A stretch of DNA of 45,296 bases from the NCBI GenBank assembly GCA_021298995.1, contig JAJTGB010000004.1, positions 1 to 45,296 on the forward strand. Direction: 5' to 3'. This DNA is from Comamonadaceae bacterium (GTDB lineage Bacteria > Pseudomonadota > Gammaproteobacteria > Burkholderiales > Burkholderiaceae_C). Shown piece after piece: positions 3,620 through 22,947 of the stretch. A program made the position numbers and the translations under genes. The notes under the pieces are model-generated. The model was not told the origin of the DNA and searched no databases. It was given only the letters and a program-made list of their open reading frames with translations. How positions within the stretch are numbered: the stretch's first letter is position 1; each line of letters starts with the position of its first letter.

Positions 3620-4603
3620 ATGAAACGTTTGCTAGTGATTGCAGCCGCTGCCTTGACAATGGTTGCGCATGCTCAAAATTTCCCAGGCACCAAGCCTGTT
3701 TCAATTGTGGTTCCCTTTGCTGCGGGTGGCCCCACCGACAAAGTTGCTCGTGACCTGGCCGTGGCCATGGCTAAAACCATGCCCGGCGGCAATTTTGTGG
3801 TCGAAAACGTTGCTGGCGCTGGCGGCACCATTGGCGCAACCAAGGTGGCACGTGCCAACCCCGATGGCCATACATTGCTGTTGTTCCACATTGGCATGGC
3901 CGCAACGCCAGCGCTGTACCGCAAACTCGCCTACAAGCCTTTGGAAGACTTTGAGTTCTTGGGCATGGTCAATGATGTGCCCATGACCTTGGTTGGCAAA
4001 CCACAACTGCCCGCCAACACCTATCGCGATTTTGAAAACTACATCCGTGCCAACGCAGGTAAGTTGAACATTGCCCATGCAGGCTTGGGTTCGGCCTCAC
4101 ACATTTGCGGCATGTTGTGGCAAGCACAATTGCAGTCCAAAGAAGCCATGACCACCATTCCTTTTGGCGGTACAGCACCCGCTATGAATGCCTTGGTTGG
4201 CGGTCAGGTTGACGTCATGTGCGATCAAACCACCAACACCACGGCGCAAATTGAGTCTGGCCGTATCAAAGCCTTTGCAGTGACTACCGCCAAGCCTTTG
4301 TCGGATCACAAATCGTTGAAGTACTACCCATCATTGCAAGAAATGGGCTTGAAGAATTTCGACCTCACCATTTGGCACGGTCTGTATGCGCCAAAGGGTA
4401 CACCAGCGGCCATTACCACTGCGTTGAACGACGCCATGAAAAAGGCCTTGAAGGACCCTGAGTTCATCAAGAAGCAAGAAGGCTTGGGCGCTTTGGTGGT
4501 GACTGACAAACGCGTTGAACCCGCAGAACACAAAAAGTTTGTGGCCGCAGAAATTCAGAAGATCAAAGTGGCAGTGGATGCCAGCGGCAAGTACGCTGAT
4601 TAA
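3620..4603 (+). CDS. Bug-family tripartite tricarboxylate transporter substrate-binding protein
   Basis: Periplasmic binding protein of the TctC/Bug family (327 residues), a family greatly expanded in Burkholderiales. The signal peptide is MKRLLVIAAAALTMVAHAQ, with cleavage after AHA. The mature protein opens with the family pattern KPVSIVVPFAAGGPTDKVARDLA and later has ENVAGAGGTIGA and VGGQVDVMCDQ, all typical Bug segments. AGGAG at 3609-3613 supports the ATG at 3620. No TctA/TctB membrane genes are nearby, which is common for orphan Bug proteins; the ligand is likely a carboxylate but unknown. It is convergent with the esterase gene that follows. Confidence 0.9.
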   Translation: MKRLLVIAAAALTMVAHAQNFPGTKPVSIVVPFAAGGPTDKVARDLAVAMAKTMPGGNFVVENVAGAGGTIGATKVARANPDGHTLLLFHIGMAATPALYRKLAYKPLEDFEFLGMVNDVPMTLVGKPQLPANTYRDFENYIRANAGKLNIAHAGLGSASHICGMLWQAQLQSKEAMTTIPFGGTAPAMNALVGGQVDVMCDQTTNTTAQIESGRIKAFAVTTAKPLSDHKSLKYYPSLQEMGLKNFDLTIWHGLYAPKGTPAAITTALNDAMKKALKDPEFIKKQEGLGALVVTDKRVEPAEHKKFVAAEIQKIKVAVDASGKYAD

Positions 4604-4702: not shown

Positions 4703-5680
4703 TCATTTACCCAATAGAAACAACACGGGAATCTCAAGTCGAGCGGCCCATGCTTTTTCATTGTGGCCAGTGCCCTCAAACACGCGAGTCATGAAATTCG
4801 CCTGAACGCCATGCTCTTTGTAGCCTTTGTCTCGAACGATTTGGTTGACAAAGATTTGATAGGGCGCATACAGAGCGTCAAGCTCTGTGGTGCCGTGGTC
4901 TTGGTAGATCTTGTGGCCTTGGGGTGGCGCCAAGTGATCGCGCAGGTAAACATAGGCAGCCAGTGGAATGTGCGAATTGGCTTCGTGACCACCGATCCAG
5001 TGCGTTGAGAGTCCTGCAGCACCGCCAAAAATGTGCGGATACTCGTTCATGGCATAGACAGAAATGAGGCCGCCCATGCTCGAGCCCATCAACACGGTAT
5101 TGGCGGGGCCAGCCAAGGTGGGGTAACGTTGGTCGATGGCGGGCTTGAGTTCTTGCACCAAAAAGCGCAAATAGGCATCCGCTTGTGGCTTGTTTTGCAA
5201 AGCCTTCTCCAAAAGCAACTGGCGCGGGCCTGGCAGCAGATGTTGCAAGTGCTTTTGAGGAAAGTACTCGCTGTGCCGATACTTGCCATTGTTCCAAACG
5301 CCCACCACCAAGGTGGGTGCAATTTGCCCAGACTGCATCAGTCTTGTGATGGTTTTGTCAACCCACCAAGCCTGTTTGTTCCAAGTGGTTTGCGCATCAA
5401 AAAGCATTTGCCCATCGTGCATGTAAATCACATTGAAGCGCTGCCCTGCAGCTTTGAGAGACTCAAAATTGTCGGGCAACCAAACATCCACATGCCGCGC
5501 ATCCACATGCTGAGATGGGAAGTTGGCCATTCTTTCGATGCGTCCTGATTCAGGTTTTGGTAACACTTGCGCGCTCGGTTTCTCACTCAGTTGCGCATGA
5601 CCACTCAAGTGGATGAGTGCACTGACAAGAAGCGTCAACAAAGAAGCGAAGCATGACATGAACGAGTGGGCGTTGCGCAT
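4703..5680 (-). CDS. Secreted alpha/beta-hydrolase esterase (Esterase D / Fes-like family)
   Basis: 325-residue exported hydrolase. The N-terminus (MRNAHSFMSCFASLLTLLVS...GHAQ) is a signal peptide. The nucleophile elbow is GSSMGG in VLMGSSMGGLISVYAM, YMHDGQMLFD is the conserved oxyanion-side segment of this family (PF00756), and the likely catalytic His is in GTGHNEKAW near the C-terminus. The family cleaves carboxylic esters, including acylated sugars; the actual substrate is unknown. It lies nine bases downstream of glucokinase and is the last gene of the tonB-exbBDD-glk run, so it is probably co-expressed with the starch locus. A role in removing ester decorations from polysaccharide is possible but only inferred. 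Confidence 0.8.
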   Translation of the reverse strand: MRNAHSFMSCFASLLTLLVSALIHLSGHAQLSEKPSAQVLPKPESGRIERMANFPSQHVDARHVDVWLPDNFESLKAAGQRFNVIYMHDGQMLFDAQTTWNKQAWWVDKTITRLMQSGQIAPTLVVGVWNNGKYRHSEYFPQKHLQHLLPGPRQLLLEKALQNKPQADAYLRFLVQELKPAIDQRYPTLAGPANTVLMGSSMGGLISVYAMNEYPHIFGGAAGLSTHWIGGHEANSHIPLAAYVYLRDHLAPPQGHKIYQDHGTTELDALYAPYQIFVNQIVRDKGYKEHGVQANFMTRVFEGTGHNEKAWAARLEIPVLFLLGK

Positions 5681-9336: not shown

Positions 9337-11208
9337 TTATTGGCTGTGAGATGTGTAGGGTTTGAGGGGAAAAGGCGGGCTGACAGCCGGCGTACCTTTT
9401 GGCTCGCGAGGTTTGTCAAGATGCTCTTGTTGAATTGGATAAGCCAATGTATGGCGCATTTCCAAGCCCACGATCAAAATGTCAATTAGCAACAAATGCA
9501 AAACACGGCTCACCATGGGCAGGTGAGTGGCGGCATTTTCATTATGCTCGGCAACCAAAGCGGCATCTGCTTTGCGCGCCAAAGGCGATTGGTTGGCTGT
9601 GATGGCAATCAAGGCAGCTCCGCGCTGCTGAATCTTTTCTTGCAAGGCCATTAGCTGAGGCAATTTGCCACCGCTGCTAATAATCACCGCCACGGTGCCA
9701 GGCTGAATAGACGCTGCGGTGAGCTCTTGCAAATGAGGCTCGGTGTGGGCGCCACACGGAAGCCCCAGACGCAAAAACTTGGTTTGAGCATCTTGGGCCA
9801 CTGCCGAGTAGTTACCCACGGCAAAGAGTTCAACTCGGTCTGCGCCAGCAACCAAATCAATGGCACGGTCAATAGAATCACGTTGCAGTTCGTTACGCAG
9901 TTGCAAAATAGCATTAGCCGTATTGCCCAGCACCTTGGCGCCCAATTCCAGCATGGAATCATCGTTTGTCACTTTGGAGTGAGTGATCGGTACCGACATG
10001 CTTAAGCCCGATGCCAAACGCAGCTTGAGATCAGACAAACCTTTGCAACCCACAGACCTACAAAACCGAATCACGGTAGGTTGGCTAACCTGAGCTGTCA
10101 AGGCGATATCGTGAATAGGATCGCTCAGGACAGATCGCGGTTTGGCCAATACCAAATCGGCAACACGCTGTTCTGCCGGTGATAGCTCAGCCCGAGAGCG
10201 CCTAATTTGAGTCAGGATGGCTGAGCCTGGGCTGCTCATCATGGCGCGCAATTGCGTGTCCAAAATGGCAGATGCGCCCAAGAAAGTGGCCTGGGGTGCC
10301 GTGATTACAAAGGTTGGAATTTGACCTACATAGTTGGCAAATCGACCCTTTTGCTCAAAGCGACTTCGAAAGCCTGAGCGATCAAAAAAATCACCCAATC
10401 GCGGCACAATGCTGCCCCCAATATAGATGCCGCCCGTGGCTCCTAAGGTGAGCGCCAAATTACTAGCGGCCGTGCCGAGAATGTTGCAAAACAAATCCAA
10501 TGATTGCGTGCACAAGGGGTCTTTTTCGTCCAAGGCGCAGCGAGCAATGTCTGGCGCGGCGAGTCCTTTGACTTGCATTTGGTTCAGCTCTGCGAGCGCC
10601 AAATAGGTCAACTCAAGGCCTGTTCCAGACAGCAAACGTTCAAACGAAACGTGGTCGAAATGACGCCACATATAGGCCAACACAGCGGCCTCGCGGGCAT
10701 CAGAAGGCGCAAAGCTGGTGTGCCCCCCCTCGGACCCTAACGAAGTCCAACCATCTCCCGAAGGAATCAGGCCAGAAACACCCAAGCCGGAGCCTGAACC
10801 AATTAAGCCAATGACACTGTTTTTGACGGCTTGGCCAGAACCCACTTGGCGGAAATCTTGTGGAGTTAAACGCGGCAAAGCCATGGCCAAGGAAGTGAAA
10901 TCGTTCACCACCACCAGCGTATCGAGGCCTAAATTGAGTCGTGTTTCTTCAATGGAAAATTGCCAGTGGTAGTTGGTCATGCGAACACGGTCACCATCTA
11001 CAGGGTTCGCAATGGCCACGGCAGCATGGGCCACAGAGGCTGATTTCAAGCTGGCCAGGTAGGCTGCCACAGCTGCTTCAAAGCTGGGAAAGTCAGCACA
11101 TCGCAAGCTGCGTTGTTGGGTAAATTCGCCGTAGCTGGTTTCGATGGCAAAGCGCGCATACAGGCCACCGATATCAGCGATCAAACGGGGAGAGTCAAAT
11201 GCGATCAT
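9337..11208 (-). CDS. Fused glucokinase-RpiR family transcriptional regulator
   Basis: 623 residues from the ATG at 11208. Residues 1-320 are a glucokinase domain; about 335-400 an RpiR-type helix-turn-helix (AELSPAEQRVADLVL...VSQPTVIRFCRSVGC); about 445-565 a SIS sugar-isomerase fold (VELFAVGNYSAVAQDA, VAVIISSGGKLPQL) that binds phosphosugars. Such Glk-HexR/RpiR fusions are known in Burkholderiales. Catalytic Asp103 (NDFTSLAMALP) and the EGGH loop remain, but the phosphate-1 motif is DIGGLYAR at 12-19, with Leu-Tyr replacing Thr-Asn, so kinase activity is doubtful. The open frame reaches back to 11346, but that start would run through operator C; 11208 aligns with family N-termini. It is probably the regulator of the palindromes listed here, responding to a hexose-phosphate or Entner-Doudoroff intermediate. 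Confidence 0.88.
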   Translation of the reverse strand: MIAFDSPRLIADIGGLYARFAIETSYGEFTQQRSLRCADFPSFEAAVAAYLASLKSASVAHAAVAIANPVDGDRVRMTNYHWQFSIEETRLNLGLDTLVVVNDFTSLAMALPRLTPQDFRQVGSGQAVKNSVIGLIGSGSGLGVSGLIPSGDGWTSLGSEGGHTSFAPSDAREAAVLAYMWRHFDHVSFERLLSGTGLELTYLALAELNQMQVKGLAAPDIARCALDEKDPLCTQSLDLFCNILGTAASNLALTLGATGGIYIGGSIVPRLGDFFDRSGFRSRFEQKGRFANYVGQIPTFVITAPQATFLGASAILDTQLRAMMSSPGSAILTQIRRSRAELSPAEQRVADLVLAKPRSVLSDPIHDIALTAQVSQPTVIRFCRSVGCKGLSDLKLRLASGLSMSVPITHSKVTNDDSMLELGAKVLGNTANAILQLRNELQRDSIDRAIDLVAGADRVELFAVGNYSAVAQDAQTKFLRLGLPCGAHTEPHLQELTAASIQPGTVAVIISSGGKLPQLMALQEKIQQRGAALIAITANQSPLARKADAALVAEHNENAATHLPMVSRVLHLLLIDILIVGLEMRHTLAYPIQQEHLDKPREPKGTPAVSPPFPLKPYTSHSQ

Positions 11209-11304
11209 GGACAAATCTGGGGCAATGGTGTGCAATATTGAGTGAGGGCTGTCGAATTTCAGGCTGTTTGCGAAGCACTCAAAGGTCTGACGATTGACTG
11301 AATT

Positions 11305-11319
11305 TGTAATGTAACTACG
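11305..11319. promoter_or_regulatory. HexR/RpiR-like operator in the glkR-amylase divergent promoter (site C)
   Basis: TGTAATGTAACTACG, 11 of 15 to the HexR consensus, with both half-sites recognisable. It lies 97 bases before the fusion regulator start and 121 before the amylase start, suggesting autoregulation and joint control. A further inverted repeat GTAAC-N6-GTTAC follows at 11337-11352. Confidence 0.5.
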
Positions 11320-11440
11320 AGCAAGCAAGTTGAAATGTAACCTCATTGTTACTTTTATTTCAAGCCCAATGTCCGTGAAAATTGCAAGATATTAGAGGAA
11401 AATAGGCCATCTCTCATCGAAAATCAAGAGCGTTTCACTC

Positions 11441-14167
11441 ATGTTACTTTCTTACGCGCGTAGTAAAGCTACAGTTTTCGGGGCTTCAATTTCTGTATCT
11501 GTTTTGGTATGGGCCCTGAGCATGGCACTTTCAGCAGAAGCCGCAGCGCCCAAATTAAAGCTTCATGTGCCGTCACCCGATTGGCGCGACCAAATCATTT
11601 ACTTTCTCATGACTGACCGTTTTGAGGATGGAAACCCTCAAAACAACGATCAAGGTGCGGGTGAGTTTGATCCCAAGCAAGGCGCGCGCTACAGCGGTGG
11701 CGATTTGGCAGGTGTGCAAAAACGGCTGAACTACATCCAAGGGCTGGGCGCCACGGCGGTGTGGATCACGCCCCCGGTGGCCAACCAGTGGTGGAACGGC
11801 AACTACGGTGGCTACCACGGCTACTGGGCATCCGACTTCAAGCGGGTTGACGCCCACGTGGGCACCTTGAAAGACTACCAAAAACTCTCTGATGCACTGC
11901 ACCGCCGAGGGATGTACCTCGTTCAAGACATTGTGCTGAACCACATGGGCGATTTTTTTCGCTATAAAAATGTAGCGCCTGGAAGCACAGAGAAAGATCC
12001 GACACAAGGCTATGAGTTCAACGCGCAATCGGTCCCAATGAAGGCACCTTTGCAAAAGCCCTTTAACCAGAACGACCCACTCAACTCTCAACATCGTACA
12101 GCAGGCATCTATCACTGGACGCCCGATGTGGTCAATTACAACGATCGCCATCAAGAGTTGAATTACCAGATGGCTGGCTTGGACGATTTGAATTCTGAAA
12201 ACCCGGTGGTCAGACGTGCACTGCGCGACAGCTATGGGTATTGGATTCGAGAAGTGGGTGTCGATGCTTTCAGGTTGGACACGGCCTTTTATGTACCGCC
12301 CGAGGCCATTCAAGATTTTCTCTATGCCAAAGATCCCAAGCACCCCGGCATGCGCTTGGTTGCCCAACAAACGGGCCGCAAAAATTTCCTGACCTTTGGC
12401 GAAGGCTTTGGCATCGACAAGGCAGGTGAGACCCAGCAAATGAAAAAAATTGAGGCCTACGTGCGAGACGCCAAGGGTGCGCCCGTCATGCAAGGCATGC
12501 TCAATTTTCCGTTGTATGGCAGTGTGAGTGATGTCATGGCGCGGGGGCGTCCCACGCAAGAGTTGGCAGAGCGAATTCGACAGAACATGCAAATTCACAG
12601 CGATCCGCACCGCATGCCCAGTTTCTTAGACAACCACGATGTTGATCGGTTTTTAAAGGGTGGCAGTGAATTGGCCTTGCGTCAAAGCTTGGCCTTGATG
12701 ATGACCTTGCCTGGCATTCCAACTTTGTATTACGGCACTGAGCAAGGTTTCAAAGAACAACGTGCCGCCATGTTTGGCAAGGGCTATGGCTCTGGGGGAG
12801 TGGATCATTTCAACCAACAGGCACCTTTGTACACCTACACCCGAAGCTTGACGACCTTGCGCAAGCAGCACAAAGTTTTCTCTAGAGGGGTGCCAACGAT
12901 ATTGCGCGAAGATTCAGCCGGTCCTGGCGTGTTGGCTTACCGCATGGACCATGGCAATCAGTCTGCGTGGGTGGTTTTCAATACGGCAGATCACGCGGTG
13001 ATGTTGGATCGATTAGAACTTTTTAAAGGCCGTAAAAACGCAGCAAGGCCCGCTTCCCTCAAAGGCGTTTGGGGTGTTGAGGGAGCACAGTTCAAGCTGC
13101 CCACAGAAATTCGAATGGCAGACACAGCCTCTGACGACCATGCTGTGAATTTGCAAATGCCACCGCGCAGCACTCAAATTTGGATGGACGAGGGACAATC
13201 TAACAAGCGTTCAATGCATGTTGCAAATAACGCAGCAAAAACCAAAACTGTATTGCCTCAATGGCCCAGCAACATGCCGGAAAAAATGGCGCAAGACTTT
13301 GAGCTCAAAGGGGAGTGGTCTTTGCCTCAAGCCGCCACAACTGAGTTGGTCCTGGTGGTGAATGGCCAGTTGAACAATGCCAAAGTGGTTGAGTGGCTGT
13401 CACCCAAGCAATGGCGGTTGAGAGTAGACACCTCGGCTTGGGCAGATGCTTCTGATCAACGCTTGAGCTTGGTGGTCAGAGACACAAAGACACAAAGTGT
13501 GCTGACAGTCAGTGAACCCAGATTTTTGCGTTTTGAAAAACAATGGGCCTTGGTCTCAGAAGTGCTGGACCCCAAAGGCGACGATCGGGGCCCGCTTGGA
13601 ACTTACGTTTACCCCACAGACCCCGGCTATTTTCCTGGGATCTTTGACATTGAATCAATGCAAGTGTGGCGCGCGCAGAAGTCCATCCGCTTGAAACTTA
13701 AGATGGGTGCACTGAGCCAATCGTGGAACCCCGCCAACGGATTTGACCATGTGGTTTTCACGGTGTTCATAGGTCTGCCGAATGCTACCAACAGCCTTCA
13801 AGTGATGCCAATGCAGCAAGACCAACTTCCGCCCGGCACACATTGGCACTTTCGCTTGAGAACCCATGGCTGGTCGAATGCCATGTTTTCCACACAAGGT
13901 GCCTCAGCGGGCTCTGAAGGACAAACCTTGCTGGAGACTGCCAAGCTCAAAGTAGACGCGCAAGCTCAAACCATTCAATTTGATTTTCCAGCCTCTTTGT
14001 TGTCTCAACTCCCTGATTTGAAGGGCGTTCAAATCTTGGTCAACACATGGGATTACGACAGCGGTTATCGCAAACTCTCGCAACAAGGGGGCACGCACAA
14101 TGTGGGCGGAGGCAATGCCGATCAGCCGTTGTGGATGGACAGCATCAAGATTGAACTGAACCCATGA
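11441..14167 (+). CDS. Secreted GH13 alpha-amylase-type enzyme with glucodextranase-like C-terminal domain
   Basis: 908 residues. A signal peptide (about 1-36, ending SAEAAA) precedes a GH13 barrel starting DWRDQIIYFLMTDRFEDG. The catalytic set is intact: nucleophile Asp280 (GVDAFRLDTAFY), acid/base Glu321 (LTFGEGFG) and Asp400 (FLDNHDVDRF). A beta-domain follows, and the last 220 residues (VLDPKGDDRGPLGTYVYP ... VLVNTWDYDSGYR-like) resemble the C-terminal domain of glucodextranase and archaeal pullulanases, probably for substrate or surface contact. It should hydrolyse alpha-glucans outside the cytoplasm. It is divergent from the glucokinase-RpiR regulator across a 232-base promoter region, and its stop overlaps the start of the MATE gene by four bases (ATGA), so the two are translationally coupled. 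Confidence 0.9.
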   Translation: MLLSYARSKATVFGASISVSVLVWALSMALSAEAAAPKLKLHVPSPDWRDQIIYFLMTDRFEDGNPQNNDQGAGEFDPKQGARYSGGDLAGVQKRLNYIQGLGATAVWITPPVANQWWNGNYGGYHGYWASDFKRVDAHVGTLKDYQKLSDALHRRGMYLVQDIVLNHMGDFFRYKNVAPGSTEKDPTQGYEFNAQSVPMKAPLQKPFNQNDPLNSQHRTAGIYHWTPDVVNYNDRHQELNYQMAGLDDLNSENPVVRRALRDSYGYWIREVGVDAFRLDTAFYVPPEAIQDFLYAKDPKHPGMRLVAQQTGRKNFLTFGEGFGIDKAGETQQMKKIEAYVRDAKGAPVMQGMLNFPLYGSVSDVMARGRPTQELAERIRQNMQIHSDPHRMPSFLDNHDVDRFLKGGSELALRQSLALMMTLPGIPTLYYGTEQGFKEQRAAMFGKGYGSGGVDHFNQQAPLYTYTRSLTTLRKQHKVFSRGVPTILREDSAGPGVLAYRMDHGNQSAWVVFNTADHAVMLDRLELFKGRKNAARPASLKGVWGVEGAQFKLPTEIRMADTASDDHAVNLQMPPRSTQIWMDEGQSNKRSMHVANNAAKTKTVLPQWPSNMPEKMAQDFELKGEWSLPQAATTELVLVVNGQLNNAKVVEWLSPKQWRLRVDTSAWADASDQRLSLVVRDTKTQSVLTVSEPRFLRFEKQWALVSEVLDPKGDDRGPLGTYVYPTDPGYFPGIFDIESMQVWRAQKSIRLKLKMGALSQSWNPANGFDHVVFTVFIGLPNATNSLQVMPMQQDQLPPGTHWHFRLRTHGWSNAMFSTQGASAGSEGQTLLETAKLKVDAQAQTIQFDFPASLLSQLPDLKGVQILVNTWDYDSGYRKLSQQGGTHNVGGGNADQPLWMDSIKIELNP

Positions 14168-15558
14168 AGATGCGTTTTGGCGCTATTGCGGCGCCCTTGT
14201 TTTTAGAGCTGAGCATTGGCATGGCCGTGGGCATGCTGGGTACCAGTTTTGCCGCACACATTTCAGACGCAGCAGGCGGTGCATTTGCCCTCACCAACCA
14301 TTTGTTTGGTTTGCTGTTCATGGTGTTTCGCTTGGTGGGGGCGGGTATAGGGGTGGTGGTCAGCCAAAACTTGGGCGCGCAACACCGCCATGAAGCAGAC
14401 CGCGTAGCGCGCGCTGCATTGGCCGCTGGAACCTGGATGGGTGGCAGCATGGCCGTGGTGGCCTTGGTGTTTGCCACGCCACTTTTGCGCTTGCTGAATG
14501 CACCAGCCGATGTGTTGGTGTTGGCCACGCCCTTGCTTCAAGCCTTGTCATTGGCTTTGCTGTTAGATGCTTGGAATGCCTGCATGGCCAGTGTCATGCG
14601 TGCGCATTTGCGAACGCGAGAAACACTGGGCGTCATGTTGGTCATGCACGCGGTCCATGTGGGTTTGGCTTGGCCTTTGATGCATGGTGTGAGCTTCGTG
14701 CCAGGCCTTGAAAATTGGCCAGGCTTTGGTTTGCCAGGCTTTGCCCTTGCCTTGGTCATCAGCCGCTTGGTGGGTCTGTGGCTGCATTGGATTTTGTGGC
14801 AAAGCCGATTGAAGTTGGTGCCAGATGTAGCCGATTTTTGGCGCTTTCGCAAAACACAAATCAAACACATACTGCACATTGGCTTACCCGGTGCAGCTGA
14901 AAACCTATCTTGGGAATTGGCCTTTTTAGTCAGCGTGGCGGCTGTGGGCCTCATGGGCACCCAAGCCTTGGCTACGCAGGCTTATGTCTTGCAATTCAAC
15001 ATGTGGATCTTGATCAGCGGTGCGGCCATCGGCATCGCCGTTGAAATGGTGGTCGGTCATTTGGTGGGCGCCAGAAAATTGCGCGAAGCGCATGTGCTGG
15101 TGAAGCGCGCACAGACCATCGGCTTTGCAGTGACCCTGGTTGTGGCGGTGCTCATGGCTTGGCAAGGTGCTAGCTTGCTGCGGTGGTTTACAGACGATCC
15201 CGCTATTTTGGCTGAAGGTCAGCGTTTGCTGTGGTGGTCCATTCTGTTGGAAACAGGCCGCACCTTCAACCTGATTGTGATTTCAGCATTGCGCGCCACA
15301 GGCGACTCTAAGTACCCGTTTTATGCCGGTGCAGGCTCGATGGCCGTGGTCTTGGCTGGCGGCAGTTGGTTGCTGGGCGTGCACTGGGGCTGGGGTCTCA
15401 CGGGTATCTGGATTGCCTATGCCGCCGACGAGTGGATTCGCGGACTGTTAATGTGGCATCGCTGGGTGTCTAGAGGATGGATTCCCCATGCCAGAGCAAC
15501 GCATGCCCGCATGCGACATCAAACGCCATCGCCTGGGATCCCTCAAGCTAGCACGTAA
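14164..15558 (+). CDS. MATE family efflux transporter
   Basis: 464-residue polytopic inner-membrane protein with about 12 helices in two homologous halves: AAPLFLELSIGMAVGMLGTSF opens the first, GLPGAAENLSWELAFLVSVAAVGLMGTQALA the second. MATE proteins export cationic or other organic compounds using Na+ or H+ gradients. Start and coupling: the ATG lies within the ATGA overlap with the amylase stop. Its substrate is unknown, and pairing with an amylase is unusual. It could export an inhibitor or oligosaccharide-linked compound, but multidrug-type export is the default expectation. Its 3' end overlaps the end of the opposite-strand GH13 gene by 16 bases. Confidence 0.85.
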   Translation: MKMRFGAIAAPLFLELSIGMAVGMLGTSFAAHISDAAGGAFALTNHLFGLLFMVFRLVGAGIGVVVSQNLGAQHRHEADRVARAALAAGTWMGGSMAVVALVFATPLLRLLNAPADVLVLATPLLQALSLALLLDAWNACMASVMRAHLRTRETLGVMLVMHAVHVGLAWPLMHGVSFVPGLENWPGFGLPGFALALVISRLVGLWLHWILWQSRLKLVPDVADFWRFRKTQIKHILHIGLPGAAENLSWELAFLVSVAAVGLMGTQALATQAYVLQFNMWILISGAAIGIAVEMVVGHLVGARKLREAHVLVKRAQTIGFAVTLVVAVLMAWQGASLLRWFTDDPAILAEGQRLLWWSILLETGRTFNLIVISALRATGDSKYPFYAGAGSMAVVLAGGSWLLGVHWGWGLTGIWIAYAADEWIRGLLMWHRWVSRGWIPHARATHARMRHQTPSPGIPQAST

Positions 15559-17264
15559 ACGCGTGCTTCCCAGGCCGCCAAGGTGTCGGGTGCCATCGCC
15601 CATTCACTGCTTGGAAGGTTGCCAATCAGGGGTGTGGCTGCGGAAAAGTCGGGCAATTGTTTCAAAGGCAAGCCCTGAAACTGCGCACTGAAATTGCACA
15701 AGACCAACAATTGCACGTCATGCAAGCGGCGTGTAAAGGCAAACAACGCGGTGTGTTTGGGCAACAACAATTCAAAATCGCCATCCACCAGAACGGGCCA
15801 ATTTTTTCGCAGCGCAATCAGTTGGCGGTAATGGTGAAACACCGAATCAGCGTCTGCACGCGCTTGGGCCGCATTCACTTGGCTGAAGTTGTCGTTCAAA
15901 GCCAACCAAGGCGTGCCTTGTGTAAACCCCGCATGCTGCGACGCAGACCATTGCATGGGTGTGCGGGCATTGTCTCGACCCTTGGCATGAATCGATGCCA
16001 TGACATCTTGGTGCGGACGGCCCTGCTGCAAGACAGCCTGTGCATACATGTTGCGTGTTTCAATGTCTTGGTAGGCTTTGATGTTGAACCATTTCACATT
16101 GGTCATACCCAACTCTTCACCTTGGTAAATGAAGGGAGTGCCTTGCATCATGTGCAAACACGTGGCCAGCATTTTGGCCGAGCGCACGCGGTGCAGGCCT
16201 GCATCGCCAAACCGAGAAACAGCGCGGGGTTGATCGTGGTTGCACCAATACAAACTGTTCCAGCCCTTGCCATGCAAACCTGTTTGCCAGCGGCTAAGGC
16301 TGGCTTTCAGGTCGGGCAGGTGCAATGCCTTCAAAGCCCACTTGCCTTTGCCCGCTTGGCTGTCCACATCCATGTGTTCAAACTGAAAAACCATGTCCAA
16401 GGCGCCGGTCTCTGGGTTGGTAATTTCTTGGGCTTGTTCAAGCGTGGCGCAAGGGGCTTCGCCCACAGAGATGCAGTCGTAATGGTCTAGCACTTCCTGC
16501 TTCATCTCGCGCATGAAGGCCATGAAGCGAGGGCCGTGAGTGACCATCTCAAAGGCCGGCTGTAAAAACCCATCTTGAACTTTGGGTGCATTGGGCAAGC
16601 GGGCTTCTGACTTGGAAAAAGTGCCAGCTTCAAGCCAAGGCTTGGAGATCATGTTGATCACATCCATCCTAAAACCGCCCACGCCCTTCTTCAACCAGAA
16701 GTGCATCAGTTCATACACCTCTTGCCGCACCTTGGGGTTCTCCCAATTCAGGTCGGGTTGCTTCTTTGAGAACATGTGCAGGTAGTACTCACCGGTGGCC
16801 TCGTTGAAGGTCCAAGCCGAGCCACTGAACGCGGCTTCCCAGTTGGTGGGCTCGCGCCCGTCTACCGGGTCGTGCCAAATGTAGTAGTCGTGATACGGAT
16901 TGGTCTTGGCGCTGCGGGCTTGCTTGAACCATGCGTGTTCATCAGAGGTGTGGTTGACCACCAAGTCCATCATCAGGCGAATGCCGCGCTGTTGCATACC
17001 CGCCAGCATGGCGTCAAAGTCGGCCATGCTGCCAAACTCTTGCATGATGCTGCGGTAGTCACGAATGTCGTAGCCGTTATCGTCGTTGGGCGAGTCATAC
17101 ACGGGCGACAACCAGACAATGCCAACACCCAATGCGTCTAAGTGATCAAGCTTGGCGGTGATACCTGGCAAATCGCCGATGCCATCGCCGTTGCTGTCTG
17201 CAAAAGAGCGAGGGTAGATTTGATAGGCGACCTGTTGGCGCCAATCTTTTTTCCGAGAAAGCAT
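15543..17264 (-). CDS. Cytoplasmic GH13 glucosidase, oligo-1,6-glucosidase type
   Basis: 573 residues with no signal peptide. GH13 markers run in order: YQIYPRSFADSNGDGIGDLPG, DLVVNHTSDEH, nucleophile Asp201 in GGFRMDVINMIS, acid/base Glu269 in SVGEAPC, and Asp344 in CNHDQPRAV. In GH13 alpha-glucosidases a Val right after the nucleophile (RMDV) marks alpha-1,6-acting enzymes, while Thr or Ala marks alpha-1,4; the Val here predicts isomaltose, panose or dextrin branch-point cleavage. It is the last gene of the pullulanase-ABC operon, 27 bases after the MalK-type gene, and would finish breakdown of imported branched oligosaccharides to glucose. Trehalose-6-phosphate hydrolase is less likely because no PTS or trehalose genes are present. 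Confidence 0.9.
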   Translation of the reverse strand: MLSRKKDWRQQVAYQIYPRSFADSNGDGIGDLPGITAKLDHLDALGVGIVWLSPVYDSPNDDNGYDIRDYRSIMQEFGSMADFDAMLAGMQQRGIRLMMDLVVNHTSDEHAWFKQARSAKTNPYHDYYIWHDPVDGREPTNWEAAFSGSAWTFNEATGEYYLHMFSKKQPDLNWENPKVRQEVYELMHFWLKKGVGGFRMDVINMISKPWLEAGTFSKSEARLPNAPKVQDGFLQPAFEMVTHGPRFMAFMREMKQEVLDHYDCISVGEAPCATLEQAQEITNPETGALDMVFQFEHMDVDSQAGKGKWALKALHLPDLKASLSRWQTGLHGKGWNSLYWCNHDQPRAVSRFGDAGLHRVRSAKMLATCLHMMQGTPFIYQGEELGMTNVKWFNIKAYQDIETRNMYAQAVLQQGRPHQDVMASIHAKGRDNARTPMQWSASQHAGFTQGTPWLALNDNFSQVNAAQARADADSVFHHYRQLIALRKNWPVLVDGDFELLLPKHTALFAFTRRLHDVQLLVLCNFSAQFQGLPLKQLPDFSAATPLIGNLPSSEWAMAPDTLAAWEARVYVLA

Positions 17265-17291: not shown

Positions 17292-18251
17292 TCAGTTGGG
17301 CAGCTCAACAGTGCGCTGGCAAGCCGCCCCCTTGCTGTCAAACAAATGCATTTGGTCTGGCAGCATGCACAAATTGAGCGAGGTGCCTGCGCTGGTGGTA
17401 GCGCTGCCCTCCACCTTGACGGTGCTCACTGCCTGGCCTTCTCCCATTTGCACATAAAGCAAAGACGAATCGCCCAAGCGCTCTATGTGTTGCACATGGC
17501 CTGCCACGTTGCTGCCAGCGCCAGAAGAAGTCAAGGGAATGTGCTCGGGGCGAATACCCACCTGCACTTTTTCACCAGCTTTCAAATGGCGTGCATCCAC
17601 AGCCGCTTTGAGCACTTGATTGCCCACCTTCACGGTGGCGTAGCTTTCTTGTGCATCCACCAAGTAGCCGTGCAACAAATTCATTTTGGGTGAGCCAATG
17701 AACTCTGCCACAAACAAACTCACGGGGCGGTGGTACAAGTTCATGGGTGAGCCCACTTGCGCCACGCTGCCGCGTTCTTGAATCAGATCGCCGGTGTGCA
17801 AGAGCACAATTTTGTTGGCCAAGGTCATGGCCTCGACCTGATCGTGCGTGACATAAATCATGCTGGCCGAATTCATGTCTCTGTGCAGTTTGGCAATTTC
17901 CAAACGCGTTTGAACGCGCAGTGCAGCATCCAAATTTGACAAAGGCTCGTCAAACAAAAACAACTTGGGCTCTTTCACAATGGCACGGCCAATGGCCACG
18001 CGCTGGCGCTGACCGCCAGACAAGGCTTTGGGCAGACGATCTAGCAAAGGGGTGAGTTGCAAGATGTCGGCGGCAGCTTTCACTTTGCGATCAATGTCGG
18101 CTTTGTTGGCGCCCAGCACACGCAAGCCAAAGGCCATGTTTTCTGCCACGGTCATGTGCGGATACAGCGCATAACTTTGAAACACCATGGCCACACCGCG
18201 CTTGGCGGGTGAATAGCGCTTACAGACGTTTTGGAAATCAATGCGTGACAT
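17292..18251 (-). CDS. MalK/UgpC-type ABC ATPase lacking the Walker A region (likely defective)
   Basis: 319 residues against about 360-370 for MalK. The protein begins MSRIDFQNVCKRYS and jumps straight to PAKRGVAMVFQSYALYPHMT; in the family about 55-60 residues carrying the first strands and the P-loop GPSGCGKST lie between these segments. Everything after the junction (near 18209) is normal: Q-loop Gln25, LSGGQ 77-81, Walker B LFLFDE 97-102, H-loop His136, and a C-terminal TOBE domain. The frame is kept, so this is an in-frame deletion. Without Walker A it should not bind ATP. ATG 18251 has GGAGAC upstream; the TTG at 18269 is less likely. It lies between two glucosidase genes in the operon. 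The change may be a real mutation, a cell-level variant, or an assembly error; a functional MalK elsewhere could serve the permeases. Confidence 0.85.
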   Translation of the reverse strand: MSRIDFQNVCKRYSPAKRGVAMVFQSYALYPHMTVAENMAFGLRVLGANKADIDRKVKAAADILQLTPLLDRLPKALSGGQRQRVAIGRAIVKEPKLFLFDEPLSNLDAALRVQTRLEIAKLHRDMNSASMIYVTHDQVEAMTLANKIVLLHTGDLIQERGSVAQVGSPMNLYHRPVSLFVAEFIGSPKMNLLHGYLVDAQESYATVKVGNQVLKAAVDARHLKAGEKVQVGIRPEHIPLTSSGAGSNVAGHVQHIERLGDSSLLYVQMGEGQAVSTVKVEGSATTSAGTSLNLCMLPDQMHLFDSKGAACQRTVELPN

Positions 18252-18265
18252 GCTTGTCTCCGATG

Positions 18266-19903
18266 TCAAATGGCCAACAGCAAGGCGCCGTAGGCTTCAA
18301 ACTTCATGTGATTGCCAGCGATATTGCCTCCGTTCAAACCTGGCACAGGCAATACCGATGCAGACTTGAAGTGGGCAGGCAAGTCCATGCTGGCGGCGCT
18401 GTCGCTGAAGTTGAATGCGCACAAAACTTGGTGGCCTTCGTGTACGCGCACAAATGCCATCACTTGCTGGTGCACGGGCAGCAATGCTTGATCGCCATGC
18501 AACAACACCGCTTGGCCTTTGCGCCAGGTTAGCAAAGCGCGGTAGAAGTTGAGCAATGAAGCGGGGTCATTGTCTTGCTCAGACACAGCCAAGCTTCGAT
18601 AGGCTTCTGTCAAAGGCAGCCAAGGTTTTTGAGCGCCACTGCCAAAGCCCATGTCAGCGGCTTTGGCATCCCAAGGCATGGGCGTGCGGCAACCGTCGCG
18701 GCCTTTGAACTCGGGCCACATGGTGATGCCATAAGGGTCTTGCAAATCTTCATAAGCCACTTGCGCTTCGGGCAAGCCTAATTCATCACCTTGGTACAAG
18801 CAAGGCGAGCCGCGCAGGCACATTTGGAAAGCCGCCGCCACGCGCAGTTTGCGCACATCGGCCGACTCGCCGCCCCAACGCGAACCCACACGCACCACAT
18901 CGTGATTGGACAATGCCCATGAGGGCCAGCCGGTGGCGTTCTTCTCTGCAAAGCGCGTCATCAGGTCGTGCAAATAGGTGCTGCTGCTGTCGGGGCCCAG
19001 CAAGTCAAAGCTATAGGCCATGTGCAGTTTGTCGGTGCCGCTGGTGTATTCAGCCATGATGGCCAGGCCATCGTCATCGCCAATTTCGCCCACCATGGTG
19101 GTGTTGGGGTACTGGTCTAGCAACGCGCGCAATTGTCTTAAGAAGCCCAAATTCTCGGGCTGTGTTTTGTCAAACTTGTGATACTGCCAACCATAAGGAT
19201 TGACGTCGTTCACAGCAGGGTCGTTGCCCTTGGGTTGACCACGGCCTGGGTTGTCACGCAATTGTTTGTCGTGGAAGTAATAGTTGGCGGTGTCTAAGCG
19301 GTAGCCATCAACACCCAGCTCCAACCAGAACTTCACGGTGCCCAAAATGGCTGCCACCACATCGGGGTTGTGGAAGTTCAAGTCGGGTTGGCTGCTTAAG
19401 AAGTTGTGCAGGTAATACTGACGTCGGCGAGTGTCCCATTGCCAAGCGCTGCCACCGAAAATAGACAGCCAGTTGTTGGGTGGGTTGCCATCGTCTTTGG
19501 CGTCGGCCCAAACATACCAATCGGCTTTGGGGTTGTTGCGTGAGGCGCGGCTTTCTGCAAACCATGCGTGTTGGTCTGAGGTGTGCGACAGCACTTGGTC
19601 AATCATCACTCGCAGGCCCAAATCGTGGGCTTTGTTCACCATGGCCCGAAAATCGTCTAGCGTGCCAAACAAGGGATCAACGTCGCAATAGTCGCTCACG
19701 TCGTAACCAAAGTCTTTCATGGGGCTTTTGAAAATAGGCGACAACCACACGGCATCGGCACCCAGCTTGGCCACATAGTCCAAGTGTTGTGTGATGCCGG
19801 GTAAATCGCCCACACCGTCGCCATTGCTGTCGGCAAACGAGCGAGGGTAGATTTGATAAATGACGCCACCGCGCCACCAATTGTTGTTAGGTGCTTTGCT
19901 CAT
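18266..19903 (-). CDS. Cytoplasmic GH13 alpha-1,4-glucosidase type enzyme
   Basis: 545 residues from the ATG at 19903 (MSKAPNNNWWRGGVIYQ); no signal peptide. Motifs: YQIYPRSFADSNGDGVGDLPG, DQVLSHTSDQH, nucleophile Asp204 in GVDGYRLDTANYYFHD, acid/base Glu273 in TMVGEIGDDDG, and Asp335 in LSNHDVVR. The Thr after the nucleophile and the YFHD segment match GH13_23 alpha-glucosidases such as the Halomonas maltase, which act on short alpha-1,4 substrates. It is placed after the malG-like permease and before the ATPase; the weak ribosome-binding site may lower its output. Together with the 15543-17264 enzyme it covers both alpha-1,4 and alpha-1,6 bonds of imported maltodextrins. Confidence 0.9.
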   Translation of the reverse strand: MSKAPNNNWWRGGVIYQIYPRSFADSNGDGVGDLPGITQHLDYVAKLGADAVWLSPIFKSPMKDFGYDVSDYCDVDPLFGTLDDFRAMVNKAHDLGLRVMIDQVLSHTSDQHAWFAESRASRNNPKADWYVWADAKDDGNPPNNWLSIFGGSAWQWDTRRRQYYLHNFLSSQPDLNFHNPDVVAAILGTVKFWLELGVDGYRLDTANYYFHDKQLRDNPGRGQPKGNDPAVNDVNPYGWQYHKFDKTQPENLGFLRQLRALLDQYPNTTMVGEIGDDDGLAIMAEYTSGTDKLHMAYSFDLLGPDSSSTYLHDLMTRFAEKNATGWPSWALSNHDVVRVGSRWGGESADVRKLRVAAAFQMCLRGSPCLYQGDELGLPEAQVAYEDLQDPYGITMWPEFKGRDGCRTPMPWDAKAADMGFGSGAQKPWLPLTEAYRSLAVSEQDNDPASLLNFYRALLTWRKGQAVLLHGDQALLPVHQQVMAFVRVHEGHQVLCAFNFSDSAASMDLPAHFKSASVLPVPGLNGGNIAGNHMKFEAYGALLLAI

Positions 19904-19936
19904 AGTTTCAAAATACAAATTAAACAGAGAAAAAAA

Positions 19937-20773
19937 TTAACCTTTGACCGCGCCAGCCGTGAGGCCAGAGACGATGCGTTTTTGGAAGAAGAACACCAAC
20001 AGCAGCAATGGCACAGTGACAATCACTGAGCCTGCCATGATGGTGCCCCATGGAATTTCGAATGCGGTTGCGCCCGCAATCAGTGAGATGGCCACAGGCA
20101 CAGTGCGCTCGCTGTCATTGATCACAAAGGTCAAGGCAAACATGAATTCATTCCATGCGCCAATAAACGCGAGCAAACCAGTAGACACCAGCGCCGGCCA
20201 CAAGAGTGGCAAAAAGACTTGAAAAATAATGCGCAGGGGGCCACAACCGTCCATGATGGCGGCTTCTTCCAACTCAACAGGTAACTCACGCATGAAGGTG
20301 GTCAAAATCCAAACTGTGAAGGGCAGCGTGAAGATGGTGTAGGGCAGAACCAAGCCCCAAGCCTTGTTGTAAATGCCCAGCCACTGAATGAGTTCAAACA
20401 TGCCCGACAACACCGCCACTTGCGGAAACATCGACACGCCCAAAATGCAAATGAGCAACAGGCCTTTGCCTTTGAAGCGAATGCGGCCCAGTGCGTAAGC
20501 CGCAGTGACACCCATCAGCATGGCAAAGCCCACGGTGAGCACCGCCACCATGACCGAGTTGACCAAACTTTTGCCAAAGGGTTGCACGCCTTCAAACAAA
20601 GCGTAGTAATTGCGCAGGTCGGCTTGGTCTGGAATGATTTGCGTATTGAAGAGCGCTGTACCAGTTTTCAAAGACGTGGAGATGGCATACACAAACGGAT
20701 ACACCGAGAGCACGACCACCACCGTAGATGCAAAATAAATGAACGCCGTGGTCCAAGATGAACGGGTTTTCAT
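19937..20773 (-). CDS. Carbohydrate ABC transporter permease, MalG-like
   Basis: 278-residue inner-membrane permease of the CUT1 sugar-import family with six membrane spans. The cytoplasmic EAA loop, which docks on the ATPase, is EEAAIMDGCGPLRIIFQVFLPLL at about residues 178-200. GGAGG upstream of the ATG supports the start, which overlaps the preceding permease stop by four bases (ATGA), indicating coupled translation. With the MalF-like partner it forms the channel for maltodextrins delivered by the binding protein at 21703-22947. Confidence 0.92.
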   Translation of the reverse strand: MKTRSSWTTAFIYFASTVVVVLSVYPFVYAISTSLKTGTALFNTQIIPDQADLRNYYALFEGVQPFGKSLVNSVMVAVLTVGFAMLMGVTAAYALGRIRFKGKGLLLICILGVSMFPQVAVLSGMFELIQWLGIYNKAWGLVLPYTIFTLPFTVWILTTFMRELPVELEEAAIMDGCGPLRIIFQVFLPLLWPALVSTGLLAFIGAWNEFMFALTFVINDSERTVPVAISLIAGATAFEIPWGTIMAGSVIVTVPLLLLVFFFQKRIVSGLTAGAVKG

Positions 20774-21684
20774 TTGGCATCCTCCGACAATTTGACGCGG
20801 GCCAGCTTGATAAAGATGATTGCGGTGATCAAGATGATCACGAACAATGAGGTGGACGCTGCAGAGCCATAACCCATGTTGCCGTACTCCACCATTTCAC
20901 GGCGCACAAAGCCCGACATGCTGATGGTGGTACTGCCGTTGGCAGTTAACACATAAATCAAATCAAACACGCGCAGCGAGTCGAGCAAACGGAACACCAC
21001 AGCCACCAGCAAAGGTTGGCGAATGAGCGGCAATGTGATTTTCCAAAACACACGCAAGGGATGTACGCCATCCACGCGTGCAGCTTCATAACAATCCTTG
21101 GGCACGGTCTGCAGGGCCGCCAAAATAAGCAAGGCCATGAAGGGGGTGGTTTTCCAAACGTCCACTAACACCACGGTCCAAAGGGCATAGGCAGGCTCAG
21201 CTGTCCATGCTATTTTTTGAGAGATCAAACCCAAGTCCATCAGGTAAGTGTTGATCACACCAAACTGATCGTTCAGCATCCAACCCCACATCTTGGCCGA
21301 CACAATGGTGGGAATAGCCCATGGCACCAACACGGCAGTCCGTACAAAAGCACAGCCCTTAAACTCTTGATTCAAAAGCAAGGCTACGCCCAAACCAGTG
21401 AGTGTTTCCAAGATGACCGACACCACCGCAAAGGTAAAGGTGTTGCGAATGGAGATGCCCCAATCGCCCGCCCAAAAACCACCTTCTTCATTGGGGTTGA
21501 AGAACAAGCCGTATTCGCCAAAGTAGTTTTCCAAGCCTACAAATTTGGCGGCAGAAATATCGTTGATATTCATGTCTGTGAAGCTGAACCAAATGGACCG
21601 CGCCAAAGGCCAAACAGCCACCACCAACATCAGCAGCAGCATCGGCGCTAAAAACAACCAAGCGGTTTTAACTCTTGAATTCAT
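20770..21684 (-). CDS. Carbohydrate ABC transporter permease, MalF-like
   Basis: 304-residue CUT1 permease with six predicted helices, the first at TAWLFLAPMLLLMLVVAVWPL. The EAA loop is YEAARVDGVHPLRVFWKITLPLI. It lacks the large periplasmic P2 domain of enterobacterial MalF, as is usual outside enteric bacteria. It lies 18 bases after the binding-protein gene and overlaps the MalG-like gene by four bases. It forms a heterodimeric pore with that protein for oligosaccharide uptake. Confidence 0.92.
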   Translation of the reverse strand: MNSRVKTAWLFLAPMLLLMLVVAVWPLARSIWFSFTDMNINDISAAKFVGLENYFGEYGLFFNPNEEGGFWAGDWGISIRNTFTFAVVSVILETLTGLGVALLLNQEFKGCAFVRTAVLVPWAIPTIVSAKMWGWMLNDQFGVINTYLMDLGLISQKIAWTAEPAYALWTVVLVDVWKTTPFMALLILAALQTVPKDCYEAARVDGVHPLRVFWKITLPLIRQPLLVAVVFRLLDSLRVFDLIYVLTANGSTTISMSGFVRREMVEYGNMGYGSAASTSLFVIILITAIIFIKLARVKLSEDAK

Positions 21685-21702: not shown

Positions 21703-22947
21703 TTACCAGTGCTTGCGTCTGATTTGTTTCAAACGCGATTCGAGTTTGGTCACGGCTTCTTCGCCGGTGGCACGTTTGGACATCACCTCGTGTGCAGCAT
21801 TCCAAAAGCTTTGGCTCACCTGCGGGTATTTCAAACCTGTGGCCGTGGTGGGCCGGGCCACGCTGTTGGCAAAAACTTCCTCAAGTGCACCCATGAACTC
21901 ATTGGCCTCCAACACTTGCTTGTCTTTGTAGAGCGCGGGCAATGTGGGGTTGTAGGAGCCATGGATGGCACGCGTTTTTTGCACGGCGGCACTGGTCATG
22001 TACATCACCAAATCGGCGGCAATGGCTTGGTGTTTGGAGTATTTGGACACCCCCAATTGCCAGCCGCCCAAAGCCGCAGCGCTGGGCTTGCCTGGCAATT
22101 TGGCAACGCCTACTTTGCCTTTGACCAGGCTGTCATTTTTCTGCAGCAAGGACCATGCATAGGGCCAGTTGCGCATGAAGAGGGCATTGGCGTTTTGAAA
22201 CACACCTCGCGCTTCCTCTTCTTCGTAACTCAGCACACCAGTGGGGCTGATGGTGCCAATCCAGGAGGCCGCCAAGTTCAAAGCCTTGACTGCTTGGGCA
22301 TTGCGAATGGTGATTTCACCGTCGGGGTTGACCACCGTGCCACCGCCTTGCCCACCGACCCACTCAAGCGCATTGCAAGTGAGGCCTTCATAGGCCTTGG
22401 CCTGAAACACATAGCCATGAAAATCTGCCGCACCTTTGGCCCGCTCGCCAGCTTGAACCTTGGCGGCACTTTCGGTCAACTCCTCCCAAGTTTGGGGTAC
22501 GCGCAAGCCATACTTTTTCAAGAGGTCTGCACGGTAGTACAGCAAGCCTGCATCGGTGTACCAAGGCATGCCCAGCAGCTTGCCGTTGACCGTGTTGTTG
22601 GCAACGATGGCCGGAAAGTGCTCGGCTTCGGCCCCTTTGCTGTAAGGCTTCAGGTCCGTCAAGTGATCTTTCAGAAGGCCCGGCCACACCGTGTCAATTT
22701 GCACCACATCAATGTCGCCCGATTTGGCGGCAAACAATTGACGGTACAGCGCTAGTTTTTCGGTAGCACTGGTAGGCGGGGAAAAATTCTTGATGGTGTT
22801 GCCTGTTTTGGCGGCCCAAGCTTGTGCATGTTTTAAGCAAAACTCCACATCGCTGCCACTGGGCCCGCAAGTAATGGTGATCTCAACCGCTTTGGCGTTC
22901 AAGCAGGCCAACAAACCACTGATCAGCAACAGAGGCAAGAATTTCAT
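21703..22947 (-). CDS. Periplasmic sugar-binding protein of the maltodextrin ABC importer (MalE-like)
   Basis: 414-residue family 1 extracellular solute-binding protein. Signal peptide [20 protein letters not shown], with likely cleavage before VEITITCG. Family segments include DIDVVQIDTVWPGLLKDHL, the mid-protein GGQGGGTVVNPDG and LFMRNWPYAWSLL, followed by KLPGKPSAAALGGWQLGV; the last two patterns match trehalose/maltose-type (ThuE/AglE-like) binding proteins. The ATG overlaps the pullulanase stop (ATGA). It should capture malto-oligosaccharides or branched dextrins produced by pullulanase and amylases in the periplasm and hand them to the MalF/MalG-like pore. Confidence 0.9.
   Translation of the reverse strand: MKFLPLLLISGLLACLNAKAVEITITCGPSGSDVEFCLKHAQAWAAKTGNTIKNFSPPTSATEKLALYRQLFAAKSGDIDVVQIDTVWPGLLKDHLTDLKPYSKGAEAEHFPAIVANNTVNGKLLGMPWYTDAGLLYYRADLLKKYGLRVPQTWEELTESAAKVQAGERAKGAADFHGYVFQAKAYEGLTCNALEWVGGQGGGTVVNPDGEITIRNAQAVKALNLAASWIGTISPTGVLSYEEEEARGVFQNANALFMRNWPYAWSLLQKNDSLVKGKVGVAKLPGKPSAAALGGWQLGVSKYSKHQAIAADLVMYMTSAAVQKTRAIHGSYNPTLPALYKDKQVLEANEFMGALEEVFANSVARPTTATGLKYPQVSQSFWNAAHEVMSKRATGEEAVTKLESRLKQIRRKHW

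Follow-up and report, generated by a model that had tools for sequence, protein, structure and literature searches.

The closest described relatives of the protein considered here are the MalK- and UgpC-type ATPases of CUT1 sugar ABC importers, E. coli MalK (PDB 1q12, 2r6g and 9bcr) among them. A MalFGK2 complex in which one subunit carries a mutated Walker A is nearly inactive. One ATPase can also be common to several importers, as is reported for MsmK and MsmX (PMC4519317, PMC7658222). The gene that we describe here resembles the MalK/UgpC group in its Q-loop, LSGGQ, Walker B, D-loop and H-loop motifs and in its OB and TOBE domains, but differs in lacking 59 residues that include Walker A, and its 319-aa frame scores below both NCBIfam cut-offs (362.6 bits against 568 for MalK, and 349 against 432 for UgpC). 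The match in sequence to E. coli MalK extends over residues 14-316 of this frame, and in structural alignments the three PDB entries are 47-49% identical to the shortened protein.

The gene lies in a window of 45,296 nucleotides, the whole stretch of DNA that was analysed, from a draft genome (GCA_021298995.1; 163 contigs, 78.84% completeness) of a Comamonadaceae bacterium. All the genes of the surrounding cluster named here are on the minus strand. They encode a solute-binding protein of the importer (21703..22947; SBP_bac_1, E 1.8e-31), a malF-type permease (20770..21684; BPD_transp_1, E 7.4e-17), a malG-type permease (19937..20773; BPD_transp_1, E 6.2e-16), a GH13 (alpha-amylase family) enzyme upstream of malK (18266..19918; Pfam Alpha-amylase, E 4.3e-128) and a second GH13 enzyme downstream of it (15543..17264; E 1.5e-163), the domain being full-length in both (profile positions 1-446 of 446). 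A LacI-type regulator is found farther along the window, and a single long frame at 9337-11346 resembles what we take to be a fusion of a glucokinase and an RpiR-type regulator. By its predicted products, the combination of GH13 enzymes, binding protein, two permeases and MalK-type ATPase looks like a maltodextrin-use cluster.

The malK-type gene (17292..18251, minus strand) is an open frame of 319 aa that begins MSRIDFQNVCKRYSPAKRGVAMVFQS... and runs from 18251 to 17292. The strings FQSY, LSGGQRQR, LFLFDEP, SNLD and VTHDQ are all found in it, and we take these to be the Q-loop, LSGGQ, Walker B, D-loop and H-loop, respectively; in a 29-row alignment the corresponding columns are mostly invariant or nearly so. 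Pfam matches to OB_MalK (E 7.2e-11) and TOBE_2 (E 2e-12) show that the OB/TOBE regulatory domain is present. The ABC_tran match covers only profile positions 53-136 of 137, and the Walker A pattern GxxxxGK[ST] is absent from the 319-aa frame. The predicted product is of the MalK type as judged from the Q-loop onward and from its OB/TOBE domain, without Walker A.

Compared with the closest orthologue (locus L013 of genome G039, 96% protein identity), exactly 177 bp, or 59 residues, are missing. The missing segment runs from ELPLTINNANLTIEQGEFCVFVGPSGCGKST... to ...NELQP and includes the Walker A sequence GPSGCGKST. Blastn blocks between the window and G039 abut at the deletion junction (18206..18209, minus strand), where, as in the orthologue alignment, they have CCCG on the coding strand in common, a microhomology of 4 bp. 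With random breakpoints, at least 4 bp of microhomology would be expected with a probability of about 0.016 (a hand calculation that assumes equal base frequencies and uses G039 as a proxy for the ancestor). The frame stays open over the junction, passing from CKRYSP to AKRGVAMVFQS. Apart from malK, comparison of positions 7782-40964 of the window with G039 revealed no gap of more than 9 bp in the draft. A mismatch-free run against G039, from 18151 to 18397, covers the malK junction, and positions 11250-16750, 19600-21500 and 34500-35500 are about 99-100% identical to G039 in a more divergent background; these tracts perhaps reflect recombination between relatives, or strain mixing in the assembly.

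A sequence-only reading of this DNA had described a MalK-type ATPase without its Walker A region, with an open frame and all motifs from the Q-loop to TOBE intact, and it was right in both anatomy and coordinates. It had also called the change a clean in-frame loss, not random decay. The loss is indeed clean and in frame, and no decay was seen, but cleanness does not carry the functional reading that was attached to it, since a deletion is in frame by chance in one case out of three and fresh or artefactual deletions have clean flanks.

Comparison with relatives, which the same reading had proposed, gave no sign that the missing segment varies within the family. We fetched 109 homologues (L013-L121), comprising the best 29 other loci of the genus search (L013-L041) and the best 80 of 593 further matches (L042-L121); the query itself is without Walker A. 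Among these best rows of longer lists, 107 of the 109 loci contain Walker A, and contig ends truncate the remaining two (the short malK frames of genus loci L020 and L033 start at contig ends). In each of the 107 homologues in which both are readable, Walker A stands 43 residues ahead of MVFQ, and a spacing so constant argues against family variation as the origin of the loss. In a wider sample of the family, 24 of 399 genomes matched at E 1e-110; G000 (the source draft), G004 and G048 had already been counted, which leaves 21 further orthologues, all with Walker A. The exact junction, allowing up to 3 mismatches, occurs in one of 90 genus genomes (each species being represented once), namely the source draft, so that within the genomes searched the putative deletion is private to one draft. 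In another genus member, G075, the malK frame at L020 (contig C60) starts where its contig does and opens with N-terminal sequence that looks foreign (IAGLETTDGGTLHVDG...), while an orthologous N-terminal part lies on a different contig (C72, 5-379); the L020 frame may be a chimera made in assembling G075.

In the source draft, malK is not the only gene with a missing block. As a control, 62 pieces of the source draft (733,844 of 2,265,653 bases) were compared with 1,236,001 bases of a single-contig relative, G010; alignment blocks of at least 300 bp summed to 251,425 bp, and losses between blocks were scored at 30-1500 bp. Seven clean losses between blocks were found in the draft and one unclean loss in G010, while gaps of at least 30 bp within blocks were even, at three and two. 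The seven comprise malK, two in trpE, one in clpB, one in a permease, one where a purK-like frame begins, and the removal of a whole gene; the names trpE, clpB, EamA-like permease and purK-like are presumptive. TrpE (L164, contig C19) is short of 136 bp including the start region and of 105 bp, in frame, near the end, with junctions at 4299-4303 and 5663-5665. The clpB loss (L313, contig C52, 2536-2537) amounts to 234 bp in frame and leaves 788 aa, compared with 866 in G010. Relative to G010, the EamA-like permease is short of 95 bp, out of frame (L312, contig C51, 1466-1467), the purK-like frame is short of 60 bp at its start, in frame (L312, 7840), and a whole gene is missing between two others at L173. 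These last three losses are measured against G010 alone, and the change may have occurred on either side; the whole-gene and purK-like differences may be natural, and we do not count them as proof.

The trpE and clpB losses could be placed in the genus. For trpE, 73 of 81 matching genus genomes cover residues 1 to 498 or 499 and seven others are partial, the draft covering 6-461; the 3' block of 105 bp is present in all 30 fetched orthologues. For clpB, 74 of 84 matching genomes extend from residue 1 to at least 861 and nine others are partial, among which the G039 match spans only 531-865; the best block of the draft is 397-865, with 791 as the length of its open frame. Partial matches aside, both losses thus appear to be private to the draft in the genus search. 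Four losses fall entirely within a coding frame, and of these malK, the 3' part of trpE and clpB keep the reading frame, whereas the permease does not; the excess over the one in three expected is slight (probability of at least three of four about 0.11, by hand calculation). At the protein level, 209 ORF pairs showed no internal gap of at least 15 aa in the draft, in a test that is blind near frame ends, did not include the clpB contig and overlooked the known malK and trpE losses.

We also considered whether the missing block survives elsewhere in the draft. No second copy was found: the best protein match, 62% identical, belongs to another MalK-type gene, and in this draft of 78.84% completeness the DNA matches that extend into the missing part are at most 71% identical. 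Collapse between paralogues was likewise considered and rejected, given that exact identity with the nearest two (L002, L003) extends over no more than 17 bp at a stretch, too little for a simple repeat collapse to explain the gap. The search for a second MalK-type ATPase, another proposal of the sequence-only reading, identified one complete UgpC/MalK-type ATPase on contig C31 and another on C15; each contains Walker A and scores above the UgpC subfamily cut-off. The C31 ATPase adjoins a GH1 beta-glucosidase, which is a confirmed neighbour; other neighbours of the two genes resemble permeases and binding proteins, as judged by eye. Either ATPase could, in principle, serve the maltodextrin importer.

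Substitutions in the remainder of the gene bear on how old a loss could be. Over the 304 codons after the junction, the window branch has 9 synonymous and 5 nonsynonymous changes and the G039 branch 10 and 4, with 18 and 2 unplaceable. Relaxed selection is not seen in these small counts, and malE, malF and malG show no signs of decay. The malK, GH13_15.5 and GH13_29 rows were left out of the 15-row comparison of genes, the first on account of a misplaced G039 start and the GH13 rows for a high dN that is probably due to a mispicked paralogue; malK was counted anew separately, giving the figures above. The lack of relaxation in the rest of malK, small as the counts are, indicates that the loss is either recent or not real.

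Because the gap is private to this draft and the same draft is without blocks in other genes, an assembly error is favoured. We consider it likely that the 177-bp gap is a local deletion error of the assembly, or a low-frequency variant that was carried into the consensus, and that the putative maltodextrin-use cluster of the organism probably contains a normal, full-length malK. That an assembly should have dropped blocks is, in our judgement, much likelier than that a cell should have freshly lost parts of trpE, clpB and malK, and we infer that the blocks would have gone missing in the assembly and not in the cell. An assembly deletion was one of three options that the sequence-only reading had offered, and the private gap together with the further losses in the draft makes it the best supported of them. 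As a candidate route, the assembler may have joined the ends over a few shared bases, dropping the 177-bp block; alternatively, it may have followed a chimeric or variant path through a bubble. De Bruijn assemblers do not normally connect ends with only 4 bp in common, so an error of this kind would call for a gap-closing step or for one or more reads that span the junction. The slight excess of in-frame losses (three of four) speaks against an assembly error and may reflect real deletions that passed selection; the even counts of gaps within blocks, the result for the 209 ORF pairs, with its limits, and the lack of any other gap above 9 bp against G039 weigh on the same side. The main rival is a real and very recent deletion, arising at the 4-bp repeat through slippage or end joining, that would have inactivated MalK and its importer unless another ATPase serves it. 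The microhomology at the junction is what such an event would leave, two further complete UgpC/MalK-type ATPases are at hand in the genome, and sharing of an ATPase between importers is reported for MsmK and MsmX (PMC4519317, PMC7658222). We nevertheless hold a real deletion to be rather unlikely, as the clpB and trpE losses of the same draft would need to be real too, and malK, malE, malF and malG are without signs of decay.

The other two options of the sequence-only reading, a dead or asymmetric ATPase and a protein reduced to a regulatory partner, found no support in our analysis: the deletion is private in the genomes searched, relaxed selection is not seen, and blocks of clpB, trpE and the permease are missing as well. 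A functional subunit without a P-loop, which would pair with another MalK and lend it LSGGQ and docking surfaces, or act as a regulatory partner, seems to us highly improbable. The motifs are intact from the Q-loop on, and in an AlphaFold2 model of the shortened protein, based on the 29-row alignment (mean pLDDT 88.0), the predicted MalK fold is recognisable from about residue 20 onward, with MalK 9bcr_D as the best Foldseek match (E 6.1e-37, TM 0.87 by query); the folding of the real shortened protein is a separate matter. Against such a subunit, the start of the model is of low confidence (pLDDT 47 over the first ten residues, and below 50 at residues 4-6 and 8-12), the stretch with the ATP-binding loop is gone, and the form occurs in no other genome searched. 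The more specific arrangement in which a P-loop-less MalK would dock on MalFG and complete, in trans, the ATP site of another MalK, giving an importer with a single working site, is more improbable still.

In summary, clean in-frame losses in fragmented drafts can mimic new protein architectures, and it helps to check, as with clpB and trpE here, if further genes of the draft in question show comparable losses. Were the deletion real, it would provide a natural test of a type I importer running on an ATPase from another operon. The likeness to the MsmK and MsmX systems is that an importer could run without an ATPase of its own, two other MalK-type ATPases being encoded in this genome; the difference is that service of this importer by the C31 or C15 ATPase is a possibility only. 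Compared with the deletion errors generally known from draft and metagenome assemblies, the present case differs in being drawn from the assembled sequence alone, and it resembles them in combining a clean, private loss with further losses in unrelated genes.
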